Below, piece after piece: positions 5,570 to 56,607 of a DNA stretch of 64,000 bases. The stretch is from assembly GCA_903839845.1 (NCBI GenBank), contig CAIMEA010000019.1, positions 1 through 64,000 on the forward strand, given 5' to 3'. The notes beneath the pieces are model-generated. The model searched no databases. It was not told the DNA's origin and was given only the letters and a program-made list of their open reading frames with translations. How positions within the stretch are numbered: the stretch's first letter is position 1; each line of letters begins with the position of its first letter. A program made the translations under genes and the position numbers. The DNA comes from an uncultured Hyphomicrobiales bacterium (lineage in GTDB: Bacteria > Pseudomonadota > Alphaproteobacteria > Rhizobiales > Xanthobacteraceae).

Positions 5570-6748
5570 TCACATGGTGCGGTGCAGATTCTTCTGCATA
5601 CCGATCCGCGCGGCGAGGAAAAATATTGGCGCGATAAACAGGGGGCCGAGACATAAACCGGTTATATTGGCTGTTGCCGCCGCCAGCAGCGGCAGGATGA
5701 GCAACAATGCGGCGGCGACCGGCAAGGTGCGCTCGAATCCCGCGGCCGGTTCCCGCCACAGCCAGATCACGATCAGCGCGCCGAAGACCAGATCGTAGTC
5801 CTGCAAATAAGGCGTCGCCAGGCAGGTGCCGCTGAGCAGGACCGCGTTCTTCACGCCCAACGGTGCGTCCTTGCGCCACCACACCAGCGCGACAGCGATC
5901 AGGGCGAGGGCACCGGTGAGCGCCTGGATCGCGTAAGCAGCATCGATCGGCGCGCCTAATCTGCGCGCGGCAACAAACACCGAGACGAAGCGGTGCCAGA
6001 CGCCGGTGCCGTCCTCGAGAACGATCTGCCGCAGCACAGCGAGATTGCGCAGATAGTCGGTCCAGAGCGCCGGACCCAGCCAAATCACGCTGATCGCCAG
6101 CAGCGCACCGGCCGAAATTCCGGCAAACAAAAAAGCGCGCCAATGCCGGCCGGCCAGCAAAGCGACCGGCACCAGCAGGCCGAATTGCGGTTTGTAGATC
6201 AGCAGGCCGAGCAAGCCGCCCGCCAGCGCCGGCCGTTTTTCAATCAGGCCGAGGCCAAAGCCGAACAGGGCCGCGGTCCAGGTGCCGTTTTGCCCGCCGA
6301 CCGCGTTGATGAAAACGGCCGGTGCGCTCAGCGCCAGCAGCAACGCGCCGCGCCCCGGCAGGGCCAGCCGCACGGCGCGATAGAAGGCATACCAGCCGCC
6401 GGCAAGCCACAGCGCCAGGCCCGGCACGTAGGGCACGAACGCCAGCGGCGCGGTCAGCAGCAAAAGCACCGGCGGATAGCTGTAATGATAGCCCTGGATC
6501 GGCGCGCCGGCGACGCTTTCCTGGAAAAGATGGAACGCGACCGGATCGTAGATCTCGGCGGCGTGGCCGTGCCAGGCAAGATAGGCGCCCGACCAGTAAT
6601 TGATGAAATCGTCGCCGAACGGCCGCAGCGCGCCATTGGTCAGATGGTCACGGGTTTGCTGCCAGAGATCGAACAGATAGATCGCCGCCGCGACAGCAAT
6701 AAAGCTGCGCGCGAGCGTGATCGTCAGGTCCGGTAGCGGGCGGCGCAT
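5570..6748 (-). CDS. GT87-like polytopic membrane glycosyltransferase (DUF2029)
   Basis: The 392-residue product has about ten membrane segments. The N-terminal periplasmic loop (GDDFINYWSGAYLAWHGHAAEIYDPVAF) carries acidic residues in the position of the catalytic Asp of GT-C enzymes, and YHYSYPPVLLLLTAPLAF is typical of the DUF2029/GT87 family, which uses polyprenyl-phosphate-linked sugars. No glycan locus surrounds it, so the product is not predicted. Confidence 0.78.
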   Translation of the reverse strand: MRRPLPDLTITLARSFIAVAAAIYLFDLWQQTRDHLTNGALRPFGDDFINYWSGAYLAWHGHAAEIYDPVAFHLFQESVAGAPIQGYHYSYPPVLLLLTAPLAFVPYVPGLALWLAGGWYAFYRAVRLALPGRGALLLALSAPAVFINAVGGQNGTWTAALFGFGLGLIEKRPALAGGLLGLLIYKPQFGLLVPVALLAGRHWRAFLFAGISAGALLAISVIWLGPALWTDYLRNLAVLRQIVLEDGTGVWHRFVSVFVAARRLGAPIDAAYAIQALTGALALIAVALVWWRKDAPLGVKNAVLLSGTCLATPYLQDYDLVFGALIVIWLWREPAAGFERTLPVAAALLLILPLLAAATANITGLCLGPLFIAPIFFLAARIGMQKNLHRTM

Positions 6749-6941
6749 GGCAGCAATGAAACGCCAGGCCCGGTTAGAATGGGGTTAAGACATGCTTGGA
6801 CAGGGAGTTGCCGGGACGGGGCAATTTCAGCGACACTGGCGCGCCGCTCGAATCAAACTGGCGGACAGTGAACAGTCTGGATACACGACAATGCGACAGT
6901 CCCTATTCTCGCCCACAGCCCCATCACATGGACCTGCCGCG

Positions 6942-7235
6942 ATGCGCCGCAAGGCCAGCATGTTGGTCGTCCTGGCGGGAGCTTTGGCTTTACTGACCGG
7001 CTGCCAGACCGACGGCAGTTCGACCGATCCGCTATCGGATCTGATGTCTTCAAATGACAAGAAGGCCGAACCGGCCAAGGCGGCGGAGCCGCCAATGACG
7101 CATTCGCGCGCCGCCATGGAATGCTGGATGAAAACCGAGAAGGGCCAGCCCGGCGGCGATCTCGACAAGCGCGCCGACGTCGTCAACAAATGTATTGATG
7201 AAAAATTGAAGACGGCGCAGGCGCCTAAGTCCTGA
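6942..7235 (+). CDS. Small putative lipoprotein
   Basis: Read from ATG 6942 the 97-residue product begins MRRKASMLVVLAGALALLTGC, a lipoprotein signal peptide with the lipobox LTGC (Cys21). The mature part is short, charged and Ala/Lys-rich, with two further Cys (MECWMK, NKCIDE). An in-frame ATG at 6891 would add 17 residues that spoil the signal peptide. No strong ribosome-binding site is visible at either start. Function unknown. Confidence 0.65.
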   Translation: MRRKASMLVVLAGALALLTGCQTDGSSTDPLSDLMSSNDKKAEPAKAAEPPMTHSRAAMECWMKTEKGQPGGDLDKRADVVNKCIDEKLKTAQAPKS

Positions 7236-7246
7236 CGCAGCGCCGA

Positions 7247-7273
7247 GGGCCCGAACCCTTCGGTTCAGGCCCC
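7247..7273 (+). terminator. Hairpin after the lipoprotein gene
   Basis: GGGCCcGAACC and GGTTCaGGCCC pair around a CTTC loop, 12 bases after the lipoprotein stop. The T-run is poor (CTGTCGTTTC), so this may be a weak terminator or mRNA-stabilising hairpin. It could also serve the convergent gene ending at 7308. Confidence 0.55.
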
Positions 7274-7307
7274 CCTGTCGTTTCAACTGCTAAATCCGGT
7301 CCACCGG

Positions 7308-7688
7308 TTATTTGGCCGACGTCACGCTGCATAAAGGCGACTGTGCCTGGCATTTTGCCTGCGCGTCGGCGCGATTTTTGCCGGTCTCGGTGCAGGTCGA
7401 ATGGCTCAGCGGCAGCAACGCCGGACAGGCCACATCGAATTTATAGCCGGCTATTCTTTTCCAGGCGCGTTTGACTTTCTTCTTCACCTCGGCCGTTTCT
7501 TCCTTGACCTCGCGCTTGACCTTCTGCGTGGTCGTCTCCGGCTTCTTCGTCTCGGCCTGCGCCAGCATAATCGGCGGCCGCATGCCGTCCGATGTCGCCC
7601 CTGCGTTGGCAGCCCGCGCCGAATTCAAAGATCCCGTGCCGACCGCCAGCAGCCCGATGGCCGCCGCACCCATAATCCAAAAGCGCAT
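7308..7688 (-). CDS. Exported Lys-rich hypothetical protein
   Basis: From ATG 7688 the 126-residue product starts MRFWIMGAAAIGLLAVGTGS, a signal peptide. A very charged helix follows (KKPETTTQKVKREVKEETAEVKKKVKRAWKR split over residues about 55-85). The C-terminal domain has four or five Cys (VACPALL, HSTCTETG, AKCQAQSPLCSV). A GGGAGC Shine-Dalgarno precedes 7688. A longer ORF to 7898 adds an Arg-rich leader with no coding appearance. Not recognised; probably periplasmic with disulfides. Confidence 0.6.
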   Translation of the reverse strand: MRFWIMGAAAIGLLAVGTGSLNSARAANAGATSDGMRPPIMLAQAETKKPETTTQKVKREVKEETAEVKKKVKRAWKRIAGYKFDVACPALLPLSHSTCTETGKNRADAQAKCQAQSPLCSVTSAK

Positions 7689-7953
7689 GTCCCAGCTCCC
7701 TGTGCCGGCCACCGGCCACCCTGGTGAATCCAGGCGATCATTCGGAGGCGGGCACGCAAACAACGGCCGATGGAACCGGAAAGTTCCATGCGCGCGCCGG
7801 CAAAGATTGCGCCTGTGCATGGCGACCCGGCGGACCGGTGCCCCCCTCTTGCCGAAGGCTTCCCGCCGTACCACCATTCGCCCGTTCACAACCGCCATGA
7901 TTCTCGGCCGTATTCGGCTGACATCATGCGCCAGCCAAGATTAGGGGTTCGTC

Positions 7954-8076
7954 ATGGCAAAGGGTCAGATGCGCGTGCCGAAGGAAAAGAAAAAGCCGAA
8001 GGCCGACAAGGACAAGCCGAAGCAAGTGTCGGCCTACAAAGCCTCGCAGTCCGCCGGCTCGGCCGGCAAGAAATAG
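7954..8076 (+). CDS. Small basic Lys-rich protein (40 aa)
   Basis: ATG GCA AAG GGT CAG ATG starts a 40-codon ORF ending AAG AAA TAG. The product begins MAKGQMRVPKEKKKPKADK and ends QSAGSAGKK; about a third of the residues are Lys. I recall short MAKGQMR-type basic proteins as conserved in Bradyrhizobium-like genomes, which supports its being real despite its size. GGGGTTCGTC upstream gives a modest ribosome-binding site. The charge suggests nucleic-acid or ribosome association, which is inference only. Confidence 0.65.
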   Translation: MAKGQMRVPKEKKKPKADKDKPKQVSAYKASQSAGSAGKK

Positions 8077-8083
8077 CGACGGC

Positions 8084-8419
8084 CTACTGCTCGATGCGCG
8101 CGCCCATCTGGCGTTCGTCGGGCAGTTTCTTCGCCGCGCTGTCCAGCTCAAGACAAGTCAGCAATTCGATATAACTCGGCCAAGCGCCGATAGCCTGACG
8201 CAGTGGCCTTGCTGCTGCGCGGTGAACTGGTTCCATTCCTGTTCGAGTTTGGCGCGCGCCTCTTTCTCCGAGCGTGCGCAAGTTTCTTCATTGCGGTTGG
8301 GCATCACCGCGGCAACTTCCGCCGCGCGGCAGCTCGGCGTTACATCCAGTTGCGGCACGCGATCGGCCGCCAGCAGAAGATGCGAGGTTGCCACCAGAAT
8401 AGGCAATAAGACGGCCATG
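8084..8419 (-). pseudogene. Frameshifted small exported protein gene
   Basis: From ATG 8419, preceded by an excellent GGAGGA site, the reading frame encodes a signal peptide (MAVLLPILVATSHLLLA) and a Cys-containing domain (TPSCRAAEVAAV, EETCARSEKEARAKLEQEW, QGHCVRLSA) but stops at 8158. The adjacent frame continues in step with AIGAWPSYIELLTCLELD and ends at 8084. The two pieces look like one protein of about 110 residues, matching a small Rhizobiales family that ends in WPSYxELLTCLE. One base missing (or two extra) around 8190-8205 explains it: either a true pseudogene or a sequencing error. Confidence 0.7.
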
Positions 8420-8549
8420 TTGTCCTCCATCGGTCCAGCCGGCGGGACAACGCGCGTCGCGATTGACGGTTCATTTCCTGCCCTTGCCGCTCCACACCTT
8501 CGCCCAAGTTCCATGGGACAAGCCTCCCGGTGAACGGTGGGGTCATGGA

Positions 8550-9473
8550 ATGCCGATCGGGTTAAGAGAGAGGCGTATCGCTATCGCCTTTATCGGGTTT
8601 TGCACTGCGCTGCCGGTCGCCGCAGCGGCGCAGGATGCGCCTGAATCTGCAATCGTTTCTCCCGACCCAAGCAGTTCTGACCCGGATTTGCGCCCGGCAA
8701 TCGCCGACGATGGGCAGACGCCGGCCCCGACGGCCGAGGACAATGCCATTATCGACAAGGCGCTCGCGGTCGATCCCGCGAGCTATTTGAATATGCCGGC
8801 GCGACCGCTACGCCTGCCGGCGCTGGCCGCCGGCAAAGGTCTCGATTTGTCGCGCACCGACCGACCGGACGGCTCCGGCACCGTTGTCGTCAAGAAGCCG
8901 CTGGCCAGCGAATGGGACGCCAATGTCGGCGCCGATCTCGGCTATGCCGCCGATACACCTTACGGTTACGATCCGAGGAATCCCCTGCGCGCGACCCGTA
9001 ACGCGGGCGGCGCCGCCTGGGCCTCGGTCGGCCTGCCGAATTTCGCCAGCATCGACGCGCGCGTCGATCCGAATAACGAGCAGGGCCGCATCGGCACCAC
9101 GTTCAAGCGATCGCTGCCGGTCGGCGACAAATTCTCCGTCAGCGTGCAGAGCCGCTATTCAGTGACCGAATCCTTGGGTCAACCGCAACCGACAGCCTCC
9201 GATATTCCGCTGCGCATCGCGCCGCCAAGCGACCCCGCCGCGCCGGTGCCACGGGTGTGGGGCAATGAAAATCTCGCCAAATTCAACATCCTGCCGACCG
9301 GCACGACACTCGGCGCCGGTCTGAGCTCGACCAGCACCGATCCGGTCACGCACAACACGCTCAGTGCCGAGCAGAAAATATACGGCCCCCTCGGCGTCAC
9401 CACCGCGGTGACCGATGTCGGCCGCGTCAACGAAAACAAGAGCGTCACGGCCCGTTTCAAGTTGACCTGGTGA
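8550..9473 (+). CDS. Exported hypothetical protein, possible outer-membrane beta-barrel
   Basis: From ATG 8550 the 307-residue product has a signal peptide (GLRERRIAIAFIGFCTALPVAAAAQDA). A Pro/Asp-rich linker runs to about residue 85, and from about 105 there are alternating strands (VGADLGYAAD, ASIDARVDP, GRIGTTFKRS, FSVSVQSRYSV, SVTARFKLTW). The C-terminus ends in an aromatic Trp, as outer-membrane barrels do. Domain family not recognised. A start at 8463 is possible but lacks a signal-peptide N-region. Monocistronic. Confidence 0.7.
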   Translation: MPIGLRERRIAIAFIGFCTALPVAAAAQDAPESAIVSPDPSSSDPDLRPAIADDGQTPAPTAEDNAIIDKALAVDPASYLNMPARPLRLPALAAGKGLDLSRTDRPDGSGTVVVKKPLASEWDANVGADLGYAADTPYGYDPRNPLRATRNAGGAAWASVGLPNFASIDARVDPNNEQGRIGTTFKRSLPVGDKFSVSVQSRYSVTESLGQPQPTASDIPLRIAPPSDPAAPVPRVWGNENLAKFNILPTGTTLGAGLSSTSTDPVTHNTLSAEQKIYGPLGVTTAVTDVGRVNENKSVTARFKLTW

Positions 9474-9623
9474 TCCGCGCGCCTAGGCGCGCCAAAAATC
9501 CCGCCGCGAAGCTGCCCTGCCCCGGCCCTGTGTCGGCCCCACCATCGCCCTACTCGCATGCGGCAATCGTTGCCGCCGGGGGGCGTCAGCGCAATCGACT
9601 TTGCGCCTGTGCAGGAGTTGACC

Positions 9624-10169
9624 ATGACGGCCATCAGACCCGATCGGTTTGGAGCGGATAGAATTGTCCCGGATAAATCCGTCGCCGATAAATTCGGCCC
9701 GGAAAAATACGCTCCCGACCGACGCGCGGCGGACAGAGCGGCGCCGGAGCATTTTCCCGGCGAACGCATCGCGCCGGAAAAGCTCGGCGACATCGGCCTG
9801 GCCGCAGCCAATGCCGTTGAAGGCGAGATCCGCGAATTTGTCCGGCGCGACGTCACCGCGCTGCGCCGGCCGCGGGCCGAGGTCGATACTGCCGGCGATC
9901 CAGTGGCCGACAATCTCAATACGCTGATCCGGCGCGTTTCGGGCGCCTCGATGGAGGAAATCGACCGCGTCATTCTCGAACTGCAAAGCGTGCGCGACAT
10001 GTTGCGCAACGAAGGCGACCGGGTCAGCCGCGAAGTCGCCGGTTACGCAAGCCTGAGCCACGCAGCGATGACAGCAATGACAGTGATCGCCGACAGCCTG
10101 ACGCAATGGAAAGGCGAGCCGCCCAGACAGCCGACAAAGGCCAATCCGGCGCAACGCTCCGCCGGCTGA
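9624..10169 (+). CDS. Hypothetical protein with ten tandem charged pentapeptides
   Basis: The 181-residue product starts MTAIRP (AGGAG six bases before ATG 9624). Residues 7-56 are ten consecutive five-residue units whose first residue is Asp or Glu and second is Arg, Lys or His: DRFGA, DRIVP, DKSVA, DKFGP, EKYAP, DRRAA, DRAAP, EHFPG, ERIAP, EKLGD. Residues 57-160 are predicted helical with coiled-coil potential (EGEIREFVRRDV, SMEEIDRVILELQSVRDML). No signal peptide or enzyme motif. The helical part recalls small cytoplasmic proteins common in Bradyrhizobium. Function unknown. Confidence 0.75.
   Translation: MTAIRPDRFGADRIVPDKSVADKFGPEKYAPDRRAADRAAPEHFPGERIAPEKLGDIGLAAANAVEGEIREFVRRDVTALRRPRAEVDTAGDPVADNLNTLIRRVSGASMEEIDRVILELQSVRDMLRNEGDRVSREVAGYASLSHAAMTAMTVIADSLTQWKGEPPRQPTKANPAQRSAG
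9642..9791 (+). repeat. 15-bp-periodic coding repeat, ten units
   Basis: Every 15 bases from 9642 a unit begins with a GAN codon followed in most units by AGA, AAA, AAG or a CGN codon. The units are diverged at DNA level but strict in protein phase, indicating selection for an acidic-basic pair every five residues. Confidence 0.8.
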
Positions 10170-10186
10170 GCAAACAAAACGCGAAA

Positions 10187-10215
10187 CGCCATCGCCGGTT
10201 TGTAAGGCGATGGCG
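10187..10215. terminator. Bidirectional terminator-like hairpin
   Basis: CGCCATCGCC (10187-10196) and GGCGATGGCG (10206-10215) form a perfect 10-bp stem with a nine-base loop between two convergent genes. On the minus strand it is followed by TTTCGCGTTTTG, so it best suits the gene ending at 10241. Confidence 0.75.
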
Positions 10216-10240
10216 TCAGACTCTTCGCTCTTTCTGCAGA

Positions 10241-11044
10241 CTACAGGGTGATCGCGTCAACCACGATGCGCGTCGCCGGCCAGACCAACAGTACTTTGTC
10301 CTTGGCCTTGATGTAACGCAGCCCCTTGAGCAGATCGATGTCGCCGAGGCTATCCGGCAAGGCCTGCGTCTCGTTGAGCGCCTGTTCGGTGGACAGAATT
10401 GTCGCCGGCGCCAATGCTTGAGCGTCGGCCTTCGGCTGCTGTGACGTGTCGGCCATGACCGACTGATAGATCCGCTGGCGCTGCGCTTCCGTCAGCGCCA
10501 TGGGCATGGCCATGATCGGCACGCGGTCGAGAATGTCATTCCGTTCCGAAAATTTCGACGGCATGGTCTGCCCGGTGGCGCCGATCGGACCGGGCCGGGT
10601 GTCCGACGGTGTGCCGGCCGGACGCGCGCCCGTCGTTTCCGCCGATGCGCTGCTCTGACCGGAGGAAGCCGAGGAACCGCCCGGGCTGGAGGAGTTCGCG
10701 CCGCCAGCGGACGCGCCGGGTGTCATCGGGCCGCCAACCGCCGCCTGGCCGCCGGTCTTCGCCGTCGGATCGCCATCGCCCGAGGACGTCGTCGCCTTGT
10801 CGCCTGCGCCGCCCGTCGTCGCCGCAACGAGTGGCTGTCCGGGCACCGGGTTCGGGTCGTCCGGCATGAGCTTCGCCGCGCGGGCTTGCTCGGTCGTCGG
10901 GATATTTTCACCGCCGGCGGTCGTATCGCTGGCGCTCTTTGCGCCTTCGGCCGCTTGCGCGAGACCGAACGTCAATGGCGCGGCAAAGATCACGCCCGCG
11001 GCTAAGGCCGCAGCCGGCAGGAAGTGACGATTTGATAATTTCAC
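10241..11044 (-). CDS. Exported DUF1236-like protein with Ser/Gly/Thr-rich linker
   Basis: The GTG at 11044 is chosen because GGAGG lies five bases upstream; another GTG at 11056 has none. The 267-residue product has a signal peptide (hydrophobic to about 31, ending AQAAEG). A long low-complexity linker runs from about 75 to 155 (GGANSSSPGGSSASSGQSS). The C-terminal domain (about 160-267) ends LLKGLRYIKAKDKVLLVWPATRIVVDAITL. The short beta-rich end with a V(L/V)xxPxTRxIVxxI pattern resembles DUF1236 proteins of Rhizobiales. Probably periplasmic or surface; role unknown. Confidence 0.68.
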   Translation of the reverse strand: MKLSNRHFLPAAALAAGVIFAAPLTFGLAQAAEGAKSASDTTAGGENIPTTEQARAAKLMPDDPNPVPGQPLVAATTGGAGDKATTSSGDGDPTAKTGGQAAVGGPMTPGASAGGANSSSPGGSSASSGQSSASAETTGARPAGTPSDTRPGPIGATGQTMPSKFSERNDILDRVPIMAMPMALTEAQRQRIYQSVMADTSQQPKADAQALAPATILSTEQALNETQALPDSLGDIDLLKGLRYIKAKDKVLLVWPATRIVVDAITL

Positions 11045-53198: not shown

Positions 53199-53945
53199 TC
53201 ACTCGCCCATCTTCTGCATCAGCGCGTCCGACACCTCGAAATTGGCGAAGACATTCTGCACGTCGTCGTCATCGTCGAGCGCCTGCATCAGCTTCATCAT
53301 CTTCTCGCCGGCTTCGTCGCTGAGCATCACCGTGTTCTGCGGCTTCCAGATCATCGCCGCCTTGCGCGCCTCGCCATATTTGGCTTCCAGCGCCTTGGCG
53401 ACGTCGCGCAAAGTCTCGTGCGTGGTGAAAATCTGGTGGCCATCCTCGGTCGAGGACACATCCTCGGCGCCCGCCTCGATCGCCGCTTCCAGCATGGCGT
53501 CGGCGTCCGCCACCTTGGCGTCGTATTCGACGACGCCGACATGGTCGAACATGAACGACACCGAACCGGTGGTGCCGAGATTGCCGCCCGCTTTGGTGAA
53601 AGCCGACCGCACTTCGCTGGCGGTGCGGTTGTGATTGTCGGTCAGCGCCTCGACGATGACGGCGACGCCGCCCGGGCCGTAGCCCTCGTAGCGCATGTCG
53701 TCATAGCTTTCGGACTCCGAGCCGGACGCCTTCTTGATGGCGCGCTCGATATTGTCCTTGGGCATGTTCTCGGCGCGGGCTTCCAGGATCGCCGCGCGCA
53801 GGCGCGGGTTGAAGGCCGGATCCGGCTGGCCGAGCTTGGCGGCAACCGTGATTTCACGGGCCAGCTTGCCGAACACCTTGGAGCGGACTTTGTCCTGCTT
53901 CCCCTTGCGGTGCATGATGTTTTTGAATTGGGAATGACCGGCCAT
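53199..53945 (-). CDS. yebC: YebC/PmpR/TACO1 family protein
   Basis: The 248-residue product begins [39 protein letters not shown] and has the three-domain YebC pattern: [64 protein letters not shown], and an acidic C-terminus. Family members act as transcription factors or as translation factors that relieve ribosome stalling. Confidence 0.97.
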
Positions 53946-54040
53946 GATGCGCTCTAAAGCTATCTGAGTTGAAACCGGCGCGGTTATAGGCTGGGACGAT
54001 CAGAAAATAAACTCCAACAGCGCCGCATATGCGGGTGCAC

Positions 54041-54186
54041 CCCCTCTCCCCCATAGGCGAGCGGACGCTCGCCGTTCGGCGAGCTATGGGGGAGAGGGTT
54101 GGGGTGAGGGGGTCTAAGCCTCTCGATAGTTTTCAACCCCTCACCCGCCGCGCTTCGCGCGTCGACCTCTCCCTATGGGAGAGGTG
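54041..54186. repeat. CTCTCCC-type intergenic repeat with extra stem
   Basis: Read on the minus strand it has the same order as 17821-17931: CACCTCTCCCATAGGGAGAGG hairpin, GCGCGAAGCGCGGCGGGTGAGGGG, a variable centre, then CCCCCTCACCCCAACCCTCTCC. The closing hairpin is enlarged with GGCGAGC and GCTCGCC stems around 54055-54090. It lies between yebC and the fusion gene and may terminate the latter. Confidence 0.88.
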
Positions 54187-54194
54187 AAGAAAGG

Positions 54195-55547
54195 CTAATT
54201 TGCCACCGCCACATTGCGCAGCATGGCCTCGATGCGCTCGCCAACTTTGGCGACGTTGCGGTGCACCCGCGCCTTGTAGCGCGTGACCGCATCGCGATCG
54301 ACCATGAAGAACTCCCGCTCCGGATAGCTCCGGCCGAAGATATCGACCAGCATGCTGCGGAATTTGCCGGAGACGATGCCCGGCATGTGCCGCGAGGGCT
54401 CCTCGCTATAGGCCGCCAGATGCGCCGAGGTCAGCGCGCACAGCAACGGATGCAGCCTCGCCGAGTAAACCTGTTTGTGGCGCTGGATGGTCTGGATTGC
54501 GCGGTCGAGCGTAATGTCGGCGCCGATCTCGGCGCCAATCTGCAATGGCTCGTCGAGCGTCGCCTCGGCCAGCGGAAACTGGTCGATCAGCCAATCGCCG
54601 AGATGCTCGACATTGCTGCGGCCGCGGCCATACATCATCGCGTCGTCGGCATAGGGCGCGTACCAGGTATCGAGCCGGTCGATGACGCGGTCGATGGCCG
54701 GACGCGGAATGAGTTCGCGATAGGCCGTGCCGAAAATGCCGATCGCCGATTTCGCCCGCGACAGGATGTCGAGCACGCCGTCGCCGATCAGCGGCTGGAA
54801 CATGCTGTTGCCGACGCCGAGCACGACGAGATCGTAATTATCGCGCGCCTGCCCCAGTGTATTGAAGGTCAGATGCTGTACATTGGCCTGCCCAGGCAGC
54901 AGCGCGTTGATCATGTGCAGGCCAAGCCGGTCGCCGAAATTGCCGGCGTCGCTTTCCGAAATTACCGCCACGCTGCACGACGCCACCGGCGCGAGACGGT
55001 CGGATGGCGTCAGCCGCATCAGCATTTGCCGTCCGTCGACCGGCGCCGTGCACTGGATGCGGAAGCCGTAACGGTCGAACAAGAGCGTCAGGTCGAAATA
55101 GCTCAGGTCATTGGCAAAGCCGAGCGCTTTGCGCTCCGGCCCGTTCACCAGATCGGTCGGGGTGTAGCTGAGGATGACGTCCTGCTTGCAGAAACGCAGA
55201 TGCGTGAACAGGTTTTCCAGATCGGCGATATTCTCAAGAACGCCGAGCATGACGACGATGTCGGATTGCGTCGCCGCGTGTGTCGGGAAGTCGCCGCCGA
55301 CAAGATCGCCGATCAGCGAGCCCTTGCCGTGCGAGAGCCGTTCCGCGGCCTGATAGGCGCAACCGAGCGGCAACAGGTCGCGCAAGGATTCGCCGCCGCC
55401 GGAGCCGAGATCGAGCACACGCGAGCCGGACGGAATGAATTGCGCGGCCAGTTGCGCGCGGGAGTCCGTTTTAGAGGAAGCGTCCGGGCGGCGCGCGTCG
55501 TCGGCGAGGGAGACGAGCGCAAGGTTCGCGTTGACGTGCAGAGCCAT
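54195..55547 (-). CDS. Fusion: SAM methyltransferase plus polysaccharide pyruvyltransferase-like domain
   Basis: The 450-residue product has a class I methyltransferase N-terminal half (about 20-180) with SAM motif RVLDLGSGGGESLRDLLP (about 42-59) and VMLGVLENIADLENLF. The C-terminal half (about 190-430) resembles WcaK/CsaB pyruvyltransferases: SVAVISESDAGNFGDRLGLHMINALLP, with the N-x-GD motif near 201, DLVVLGVGNSMFQPLI and HPLLCALTSAHLAAY. The first half has MALHVNANLALVSL as its start; a longer ORF to 55640 is unlikely. Function is inferred only: sugar or polymer modification. No other glycan genes are adjacent. Confidence 0.75.
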   Translation of the reverse strand: MALHVNANLALVSLADDARRPDASSKTDSRAQLAAQFIPSGSRVLDLGSGGGESLRDLLPLGCAYQAAERLSHGKGSLIGDLVGGDFPTHAATQSDIVVMLGVLENIADLENLFTHLRFCKQDVILSYTPTDLVNGPERKALGFANDLSYFDLTLLFDRYGFRIQCTAPVDGRQMLMRLTPSDRLAPVASCSVAVISESDAGNFGDRLGLHMINALLPGQANVQHLTFNTLGQARDNYDLVVLGVGNSMFQPLIGDGVLDILSRAKSAIGIFGTAYRELIPRPAIDRVIDRLDTWYAPYADDAMMYGRGRSNVEHLGDWLIDQFPLAEATLDEPLQIGAEIGADITLDRAIQTIQRHKQVYSARLHPLLCALTSAHLAAYSEEPSRHMPGIVSGKFRSMLVDIFGRSYPEREFFMVDRDAVTRYKARVHRNVAKVGERIEAMLRNVAVAN

Positions 55548-55672
55548 GGTCACCGTGCCAGATTTTATTGCCGGACCCAGCACGAACCGGCGAGAATCGA
55601 CGAAGCGCGCCCCCGGCGCGCCGCGTTCATAGAGCGTCAATTATGGTTAACAGGGCGTTAACGGAAACATAT

Positions 55673-55764
55673 CCCGTTCGTCCCCGCGAAAGCGGGGACC
55701 CAGGGAAACGCGCACAGATCTGCAATTTAAGAACTGGATTCCCGCTTGCGCGGGAATGAACGGG
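55673..55764. repeat. TCCCCGC-type intergenic repeat
   Basis: CCCGTTCG at 55673-55680 pairs with GAACGGG at 55758-55764. Inside are the hairpins TCCCCGC-GAAA-GCGGGGA and TTCCCGC-TTGC-GCGGGAA. The 90-base element lies between the fusion gene and ymdB and has no coding sequence. Confidence 0.85.
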
Positions 55765-55785: not shown

Positions 55786-56607
55786 CTATTCCCAGAAGCG
55801 GGGCCTGGCCTCTTCCAGCAATCCGCCAATCCGCACCGCGCCGACTTTTTTCGCCAGCCCGGTCTTGGCGTCGGTCTCGACCGCGACGCCGCACAGGGTC
55901 GCAGGCCCCCCGGCCGCCTCGAATTTCGAACCGGGCAGCTTGCGCAGGAAGCGGCTGAGCGGCTCGTCCTTGACCATGCCAATGACCGAGTCGAAATCGC
56001 CTGTCATGCCGGCGTCGGTCTGGAAGGCGGTGCCGCCAGCCAGAATGCGATGGTCCGACGTCGGCACATGCGTATGGGTGCCGACGACGAGCGAGGCGCG
56101 GCCGTCGCAGAAATAGCCCATCGCCTGCTTTTCGCTGGTCGCCTCGCAATGCATGTCGACGAGGATGGCGTCGGCGGCGTCGCCGAGCGGACAGGCCGAA
56201 ATCTCGCGCTCGACGCCGGCGAAGGGATCGTCCATCGCGTCCATATAGACGCGGCCCATGGCGTTGATGACCAGCGCGCGCTGGCCGTTCTTGCAGTCGA
56301 CCAAAGCCGCGCCGCGGCCGGGCGTGCCTTTCGGATAATTCACCGGGCGGATGAGACGCGGCGCCCGCTCGATGAACACCAGCGCCTCGCGCTGATCCCA
56401 GGAATGGTTGCCGAGCGTGATGGCGTCGGCGCCGGAGTCGATCAGTTCGTTATAGATCGTCTCGGTGATGCCGAAGCCGCCGGCGGCGTTCTCGCCATTG
56501 ATGACGACGAGGTCGAGCTTCCAGTCGGCGATCAGACCCGGCAGACGCTCGTGCACGATGGTGCGGCCGGAACGCCCGACAATGTCGCCGATGAACAAAA
56601 TGCGCAT
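55786..56607 (-). CDS. ymdB: YmdB family metallophosphoesterase
   Basis: The 273-residue product has the dinuclear phosphoesterase motifs: MRILFIGDIVGRSGR (Asp8), NGENAAGGFG (Asn/Glu), LGNHSWDQ (Asn-His) and VGTHTHVPTSDHRIL. In Bacillus YmdB is a 2',3'-cyclic nucleotide phosphodiesterase affecting RNA turnover and multicellular behaviour. It lies 10 bases downstream of the fthC gene and is probably co-transcribed with it. Confidence 0.95.
   Translation of the reverse strand: MRILFIGDIVGRSGRTIVHERLPGLIADWKLDLVVINGENAAGGFGITETIYNELIDSGADAITLGNHSWDQREALVFIERAPRLIRPVNYPKGTPGRGAALVDCKNGQRALVINAMGRVYMDAMDDPFAGVEREISACPLGDAADAILVDMHCEATSEKQAMGYFCDGRASLVVGTHTHVPTSDHRILAGGTAFQTDAGMTGDFDSVIGMVKDEPLSRFLRKLPGSKFEAAGGPATLCGVAVETDAKTGLAKKVGAVRIGGLLEEARPRFWE

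Follow-up and report, generated by a model that had tools for sequence, protein, structure and literature searches.

A conserved two-domain protein of Pseudolabrys as a possible orphaned tail of a modular enzyme for protein glycosylation

What would a methyltransferase joined to a pyruvyltransferase-like domain do in a place where no glycan locus surrounds it? The gene that raises this question lies on the minus strand at positions 54195..55547 of the window, the 64,000-nucleotide stretch of Pseudolabrys DNA that was analysed here, and encodes 450 amino acids between an ATG at 55547 and a stop codon at 54195-54197. An alternative TTG start at 55640 would extend the frame to 481 amino acids; the ATG is preferred because the homologues begin at the same MALHVN... 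methionine. The initial annotation, made from the sequence alone, described a fusion protein that could methylate and pyruvylate the same glycan.

The open reading frame is a real gene and not a chance one: stop-free homologues, 45-91% identical to it, occur in 14 of 23 further genomes of its genus, and pairwise comparison with the closest homologue gave dN/dS values of 0.27 for the N-terminal half and 0.08 for the C-terminal half, showing that the protein is under purifying selection. None of 16 genomes drawn from other families in the order contained the gene, and the named records that carry it belong to Pseudolabrys, the genus of the window, and to its relatives. Searching further across the order added a single same-genus relative of G731. 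Searches for a plasmid or viral origin gave no matches, the hit at locus L092 (genome G283) was false, the protein being unrelated, and a sequence search of the PDB with the window protein returned nothing useful.

The N-terminal half (amino acids 28-184; 54996..55466, minus strand) is a predicted class I SAM methyltransferase, as first proposed. Pfam Methyltransf_23 matches residues 31-120 with 30.2 bits against a cut-off of 27, and the VLDLGSGGGE SAM loop is intact at residues 44-53. In an AlphaFold model built on 39 relatives (mean pLDDT 83) this half adopts a Rossmann fold that aligns to 3cc8 with a Z score of 14.3 over 149 residues. The protein thus shares its fold, its SAM loop and its Pfam match with the Methyltransf_23 class I methyltransferases and differs from them by its C-terminal partner, a domain of predicted GT-B fold.

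This second domain (amino acids 190-443; 54219..54980, minus strand) is harder to place. Its leading structural matches included SenB (8jjn, Z 14.2), 2-epimerases of the UDP-GlcNAc type (Z 14.0), WbbZ (6x1l, Z 13.4 over 206 residues) and yeast Pvg1p (5ax7, Z 13.2 over 217), values so nearly tied that the fold alone leaves the reaction type undecided between GT-B families. WbbZ is a proven pyruvyltransferase, and the authors who described it treat its own 2-epimerase matches as fold-level only (PMC10629545). The two halves match different folds, which rules out a single continuous fold of a known family and upholds the fusion that had been claimed. A hit to the polysaccharide pyruvyltransferase family PF04230 in this half had been named as the test of the assignment, and none was obtained: Pfam found no match in the second half of the window protein, the gathering score of PF04230 being 25.3 bits, and the relatives stayed below threshold (best E value 0.013; 14.4 bits at locus L040). 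NCBIfam named neither half above its cut-offs.

Profile comparison points to a distant relationship nevertheless. The C-domain family was compared with a PF04230-type alignment of 26 proteins from the same order, and the local comparison, which aligned the RLH region, scored 28.7; none of 40 column shuffles exceeded 17.3, and the reversed profile reached 13.4. The local score alone serves as the statistic, the hhalign -glob control being unstable (one shuffle reached 124). A longer profile alignment kept in register the NxGD motif, the GG loop, the strand ending in a conserved arginine, the following strand with its aspartate, and RLH. Taken together, motif register and model suggest a GT-B domain distantly related to the polysaccharide pyruvyltransferases, with a fold like that of Pvg1p and WbbZ, though other GT-B families score alike. 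Because PF04230 itself never matched above its cut-off, the domain is termed pyruvyltransferase-like here and not counted as a family member; to that extent the original assignment stands.

Given the equally good matches to SenB and other sugar-nucleotide GT-B enzymes, the domain might instead be a nucleotide-sugar glycosyltransferase that adds a sugar which the attached methyltransferase then methylates. The family does hold invariant residues of its own outside the published pyruvyltransferase motifs (R207, R277, H315, W319 and D348-R349). However, NxGD, the arginine and RLH fall in register with those of the pyruvyltransferases, and none of them is missing from those members of the motif table that are linked to FlmG-like TPR–glycosyltransferases (TPR-GT9, discussed below); we consider this explanation rather unlikely.

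The motifs of characterised pyruvyltransferases are NxGD, R-xxx-S/T and the histidine of RLH, and D106, R217 and R337 of Pvg1p are proposed to act in catalysis (PMC10629545, PMC4872226). R-xxx-S/T corresponds to R121 of WbbZ and R217 of Pvg1p, and RLH to H226 of WbbZ and R337 of Pvg1p. The window protein has a counterpart of NxGD in N203-F-G-D206 (54930..54941, minus strand), as seen in the motif table and the profile alignment (motif from PMC10629545), with N203 varying among close relatives; VVLGVGNS stands at residues 241-248, and R364-L-H366 (54450..54458, minus strand) is the counterpart of the conserved RLH. At the R-xxx-S/T motif it carries Pro298 (codon CCC, 54654..54656, minus strand) and Asp302. 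The correspondence of residue 298 to the conserved, putatively PEP-binding arginine rests on a weak profile alignment with matching secondary structure (strand 294-297, helix 300-306). Arginine is found at this position outside the window clade, in 27 of the 40 members of the tree, and proline in all 13 members of the window clade, the window protein and 12 relatives, which form one group with support 100/99. Compared with the PF04230 proteins (Pvg1p, WbbZ, CsaB, WcaK), the window domain has in common the GT-B fold, NxGD, RLH and the order of elements, and differs in scoring below the Pfam cut-off, in having proline for the arginine and Asp302 for the S/T of R-xxx-S/T, in its fusion to a methyltransferase and in having no polysaccharide locus nearby.

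Judged from these positions, the C-terminal domain of the window protein has probably ceased to be a normal PEP-dependent pyruvyltransferase, the R298P change having presumably cost it pyruvyl transfer. Methylation and pyruvylation of one glycan by the same protein, as first suggested, is thus weakened and doubtful for the window copy, because the proposed PEP-binding arginine is Pro298 in the whole clade. A working bifunctional enzyme of this kind would explain why SAM loop, NxGD and RLH are retained in the window copy on a fold like that of Pvg1p and WbbZ, and why the pyruvyltransferase motifs are complete in most relatives outside Pseudolabrys; set against the proline at the proposed PEP contact, the failure to reach PF04230 and the variability of N203 within the window clade, it appears unlikely. 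All of N203, G205, D206, R298, R364 and H366 are kept in 16 of the 39 aligned relatives, and 14 of these 16 do not belong to the main Pseudolabrys groups; among the 14 is every TPR-glycosyltransferase-linked relative of the motif table.

In a second, sister group within Pseudolabrys Arg298 is kept but the glycine SAM loop is gone, and several proteins of this group also lack RLH or D206. As selection is still purifying, both halves could be catalytically dead in Pseudolabrys, the protein persisting as a binding or scaffold protein; but the window clade keeps its SAM loop and its methyltransferase half scores above the Pfam cut-off, which makes a pseudoenzyme quite improbable here.

The surroundings of the gene agree with the earlier statement that no glycan locus lies nearby: its neighbours, both identified from sequence and not by profile search, are a YebC family gene downstream (53199..53945, minus strand) and a YmdB-type phosphodiesterase gene upstream (55786..56607, minus strand). 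yebC adjoins the gene in Pseudolabrys and near kin (L016, L035, L043, L044 and L048), and ymdB lies on its other side where that side was read (L016, L043 and L044), so that the order represents a fixed vertical synteny. The gene had also been described as isolated between two repeats. On the upstream side this holds: the palindrome at 55739..55759 (TTCCCGCNNNCGCGGGAATGA / TTCCCGCTTGCGCGGGAATGA) has 31 exact-pattern copies in its own genome, against 0 for the reversed control, and is a REP-like element. On the downstream side the raw sequence has only a palindromic block of the CCCTCTCCCC/GGGGAGAGGG type, at 54040-54190 between the stop codon and yebC; a search with one pattern of this block found no copy.

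The relatives provide the most informative context. At 17 loci of Bradyrhizobium and other proteobacteria (L039-L042, L046, L047, L049-L052, L055, L057, L059, L105, L106, L134 and L135) the module is fused or adjacent to a TPR-GT9 protein, and seven of these are fusions. L042 and L047 encode full TPR-GT9-methyltransferase-C domain proteins, at L055 and L106 a single frame holds GT9, methyltransferase and C domain, L134 joins TPR-GT9 to the C domain with a weak methyltransferase part, the L105 fusion is without methyltransferase, and the parts of L135 are degenerate. Flagellar filament genes surround three of the 17: L042, from a Bradyrhizobium MAG, is flanked by flagellins and, on the opposite side, by FlgK and FlgE, L105 is preceded by MotB and followed by FliS, FliD and flagellin, and L135 adjoins FlaG and FliS. 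L106 adjoins an ABC transporter, the type I secretion protein HlyD and a 2431-aa RTX protein.

The RTX reading frame of L106 (6703-13998) contains 32 calcium-binding repeat stretches and is a possible glycosylated T1SS substrate. At L047, three consecutive prepilin-like genes with N-terminal GFSLIE/GFTLIE motifs directly follow the fused gene (6180-10668), and pseudopilins may be another substrate of that fusion. In the Alphaproteobacteria MAGs of L049-L052 and L057, an adenylate/guanylate-cyclase-type reading frame and a TonB-receptor-like one recur beside a convergent pair of TPR-GT9 and methyltransferase-C domain genes.

FlmG of Caulobacter is a TPR-GT-B protein whose TPR part binds flagellin and whose GT domain glycosylates it (PMC7591256). 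The relatives resemble it in their N-terminal TPR array and GT-B-type transferase, several of them beside flagellar filament genes, whereas the window protein has neither TPR nor GT9-like domain; conversely FlmG, with 596 residues of TPR plus GT, has no methyltransferase-pyruvyltransferase tail by the description in that paper. By analogy with this precedent, the extra modules should decorate protein-linked glycans, as fusion and neighbourhood suggest, and the module resembles an accessory to a cytoplasmic enzyme of protein O-glycosylation, one that decorates the glycan. The context of the relatives points to glycosylation of protein (flagellin or adhesin) rather than exopolysaccharide. Separate PF04230 and Methyltransf_23 genes have been inferred to decorate flagellin glycans in the flag-2 flagellin glycosylation islands of Enterobacterales (PMC6993521); there the two are separate genes, not necessarily of this subfamily, and here they are one polypeptide.

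Does Pseudolabrys retain such a partner? The window genome has flagellar genes, as judged from weak profile hits and sequence, and no full-length TPR-GT9 among the matches listed, the best match to the partner being TPR-only. Across the genus, TPR-GT9 was among the matches listed for 9 of the 15 genomes that carry the gene and for 6 of the 9 that lack it, giving no co-occurrence signal. The TPR proteins of about 850 aa near Pseudolabrys flagellins are ruled out as the missing partner, being GT41-type. Such TPR-GT41 (OGT-like) proteins, encoded within or close to flagellin/FlgE/FlgK/FlgL clusters at L126, L127 and L128, are a second type of candidate flagellin glycosyltransferase in Pseudolabrys.

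We favour, at a probability of roughly 0.55, the reading that the window protein is an orphaned tail, detached from a modular enzyme that glycosylates proteins, with substrate and reactions deduced from its relatives. In these, a cytoplasmic FlmG-like TPR-GT9 would bind a filament or adhesin protein and add a sugar, and the fused or neighbouring methyltransferase and pyruvyltransferase-like GT-B domain would then decorate the glycan by O-methylation and by transfer of an acidic or other group. In Pseudolabrys this pair of domains forms a gene of its own, in a fixed position between ymdB and yebC. By this analogy the window-type protein probably decorated sugars on flagella or on secreted adhesin proteins; methylation of a sugar is most likely retained in the window copy, while its C-terminal domain may bind the glycan or acceptor, and our best guess is that the orphan protein methylates a protein- or lipid-linked sugar. 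The equally good fit of UDP-GlcNAc 2-epimerases and SenB to the C domain counts against the orphaned tail, and so do the TPR-only best match to the partner in the window genome, the missing co-occurrence signal within Pseudolabrys and the GT41 type of the TPR proteins in its flagellar clusters. To our knowledge, no member of this methyltransferase–pyruvyltransferase-like subfamily has been biochemically characterised.

What is new here is the domain combination, together with an unannotated subfamily tied to FlmG-like enzymes, whose C-terminal domain is unnamed in Pfam and NCBIfam. The strongest surprise, a single-chain TPR-GT-methyltransferase-pyruvyltransferase-like protein in flagellar loci, is found in relatives and not in the window. 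More tentatively, and at less than even odds, such single-chain TPR-GT9-methyltransferase-pyruvyltransferase-like machines may form an undescribed class that binds flagellin or a secreted adhesin in the cytoplasm, adds a sugar, and methylates and acidifies it, and from which Pseudolabrys would have split off the capping half and re-purposed it as a conserved stand-alone gene. FlmG opened the class of cytoplasmic flagellin O-glycosyltransferases, the decorations of whose glycans are little known, and a family fused to FlmG-like enzymes in flagellar and RTX-secretion loci is a candidate for methylating or pyruvylating protein-linked glycans. The Pseudolabrys lineage, for its part, offers a natural case of a conserved protein that loses catalytic motifs while purifying selection persists.
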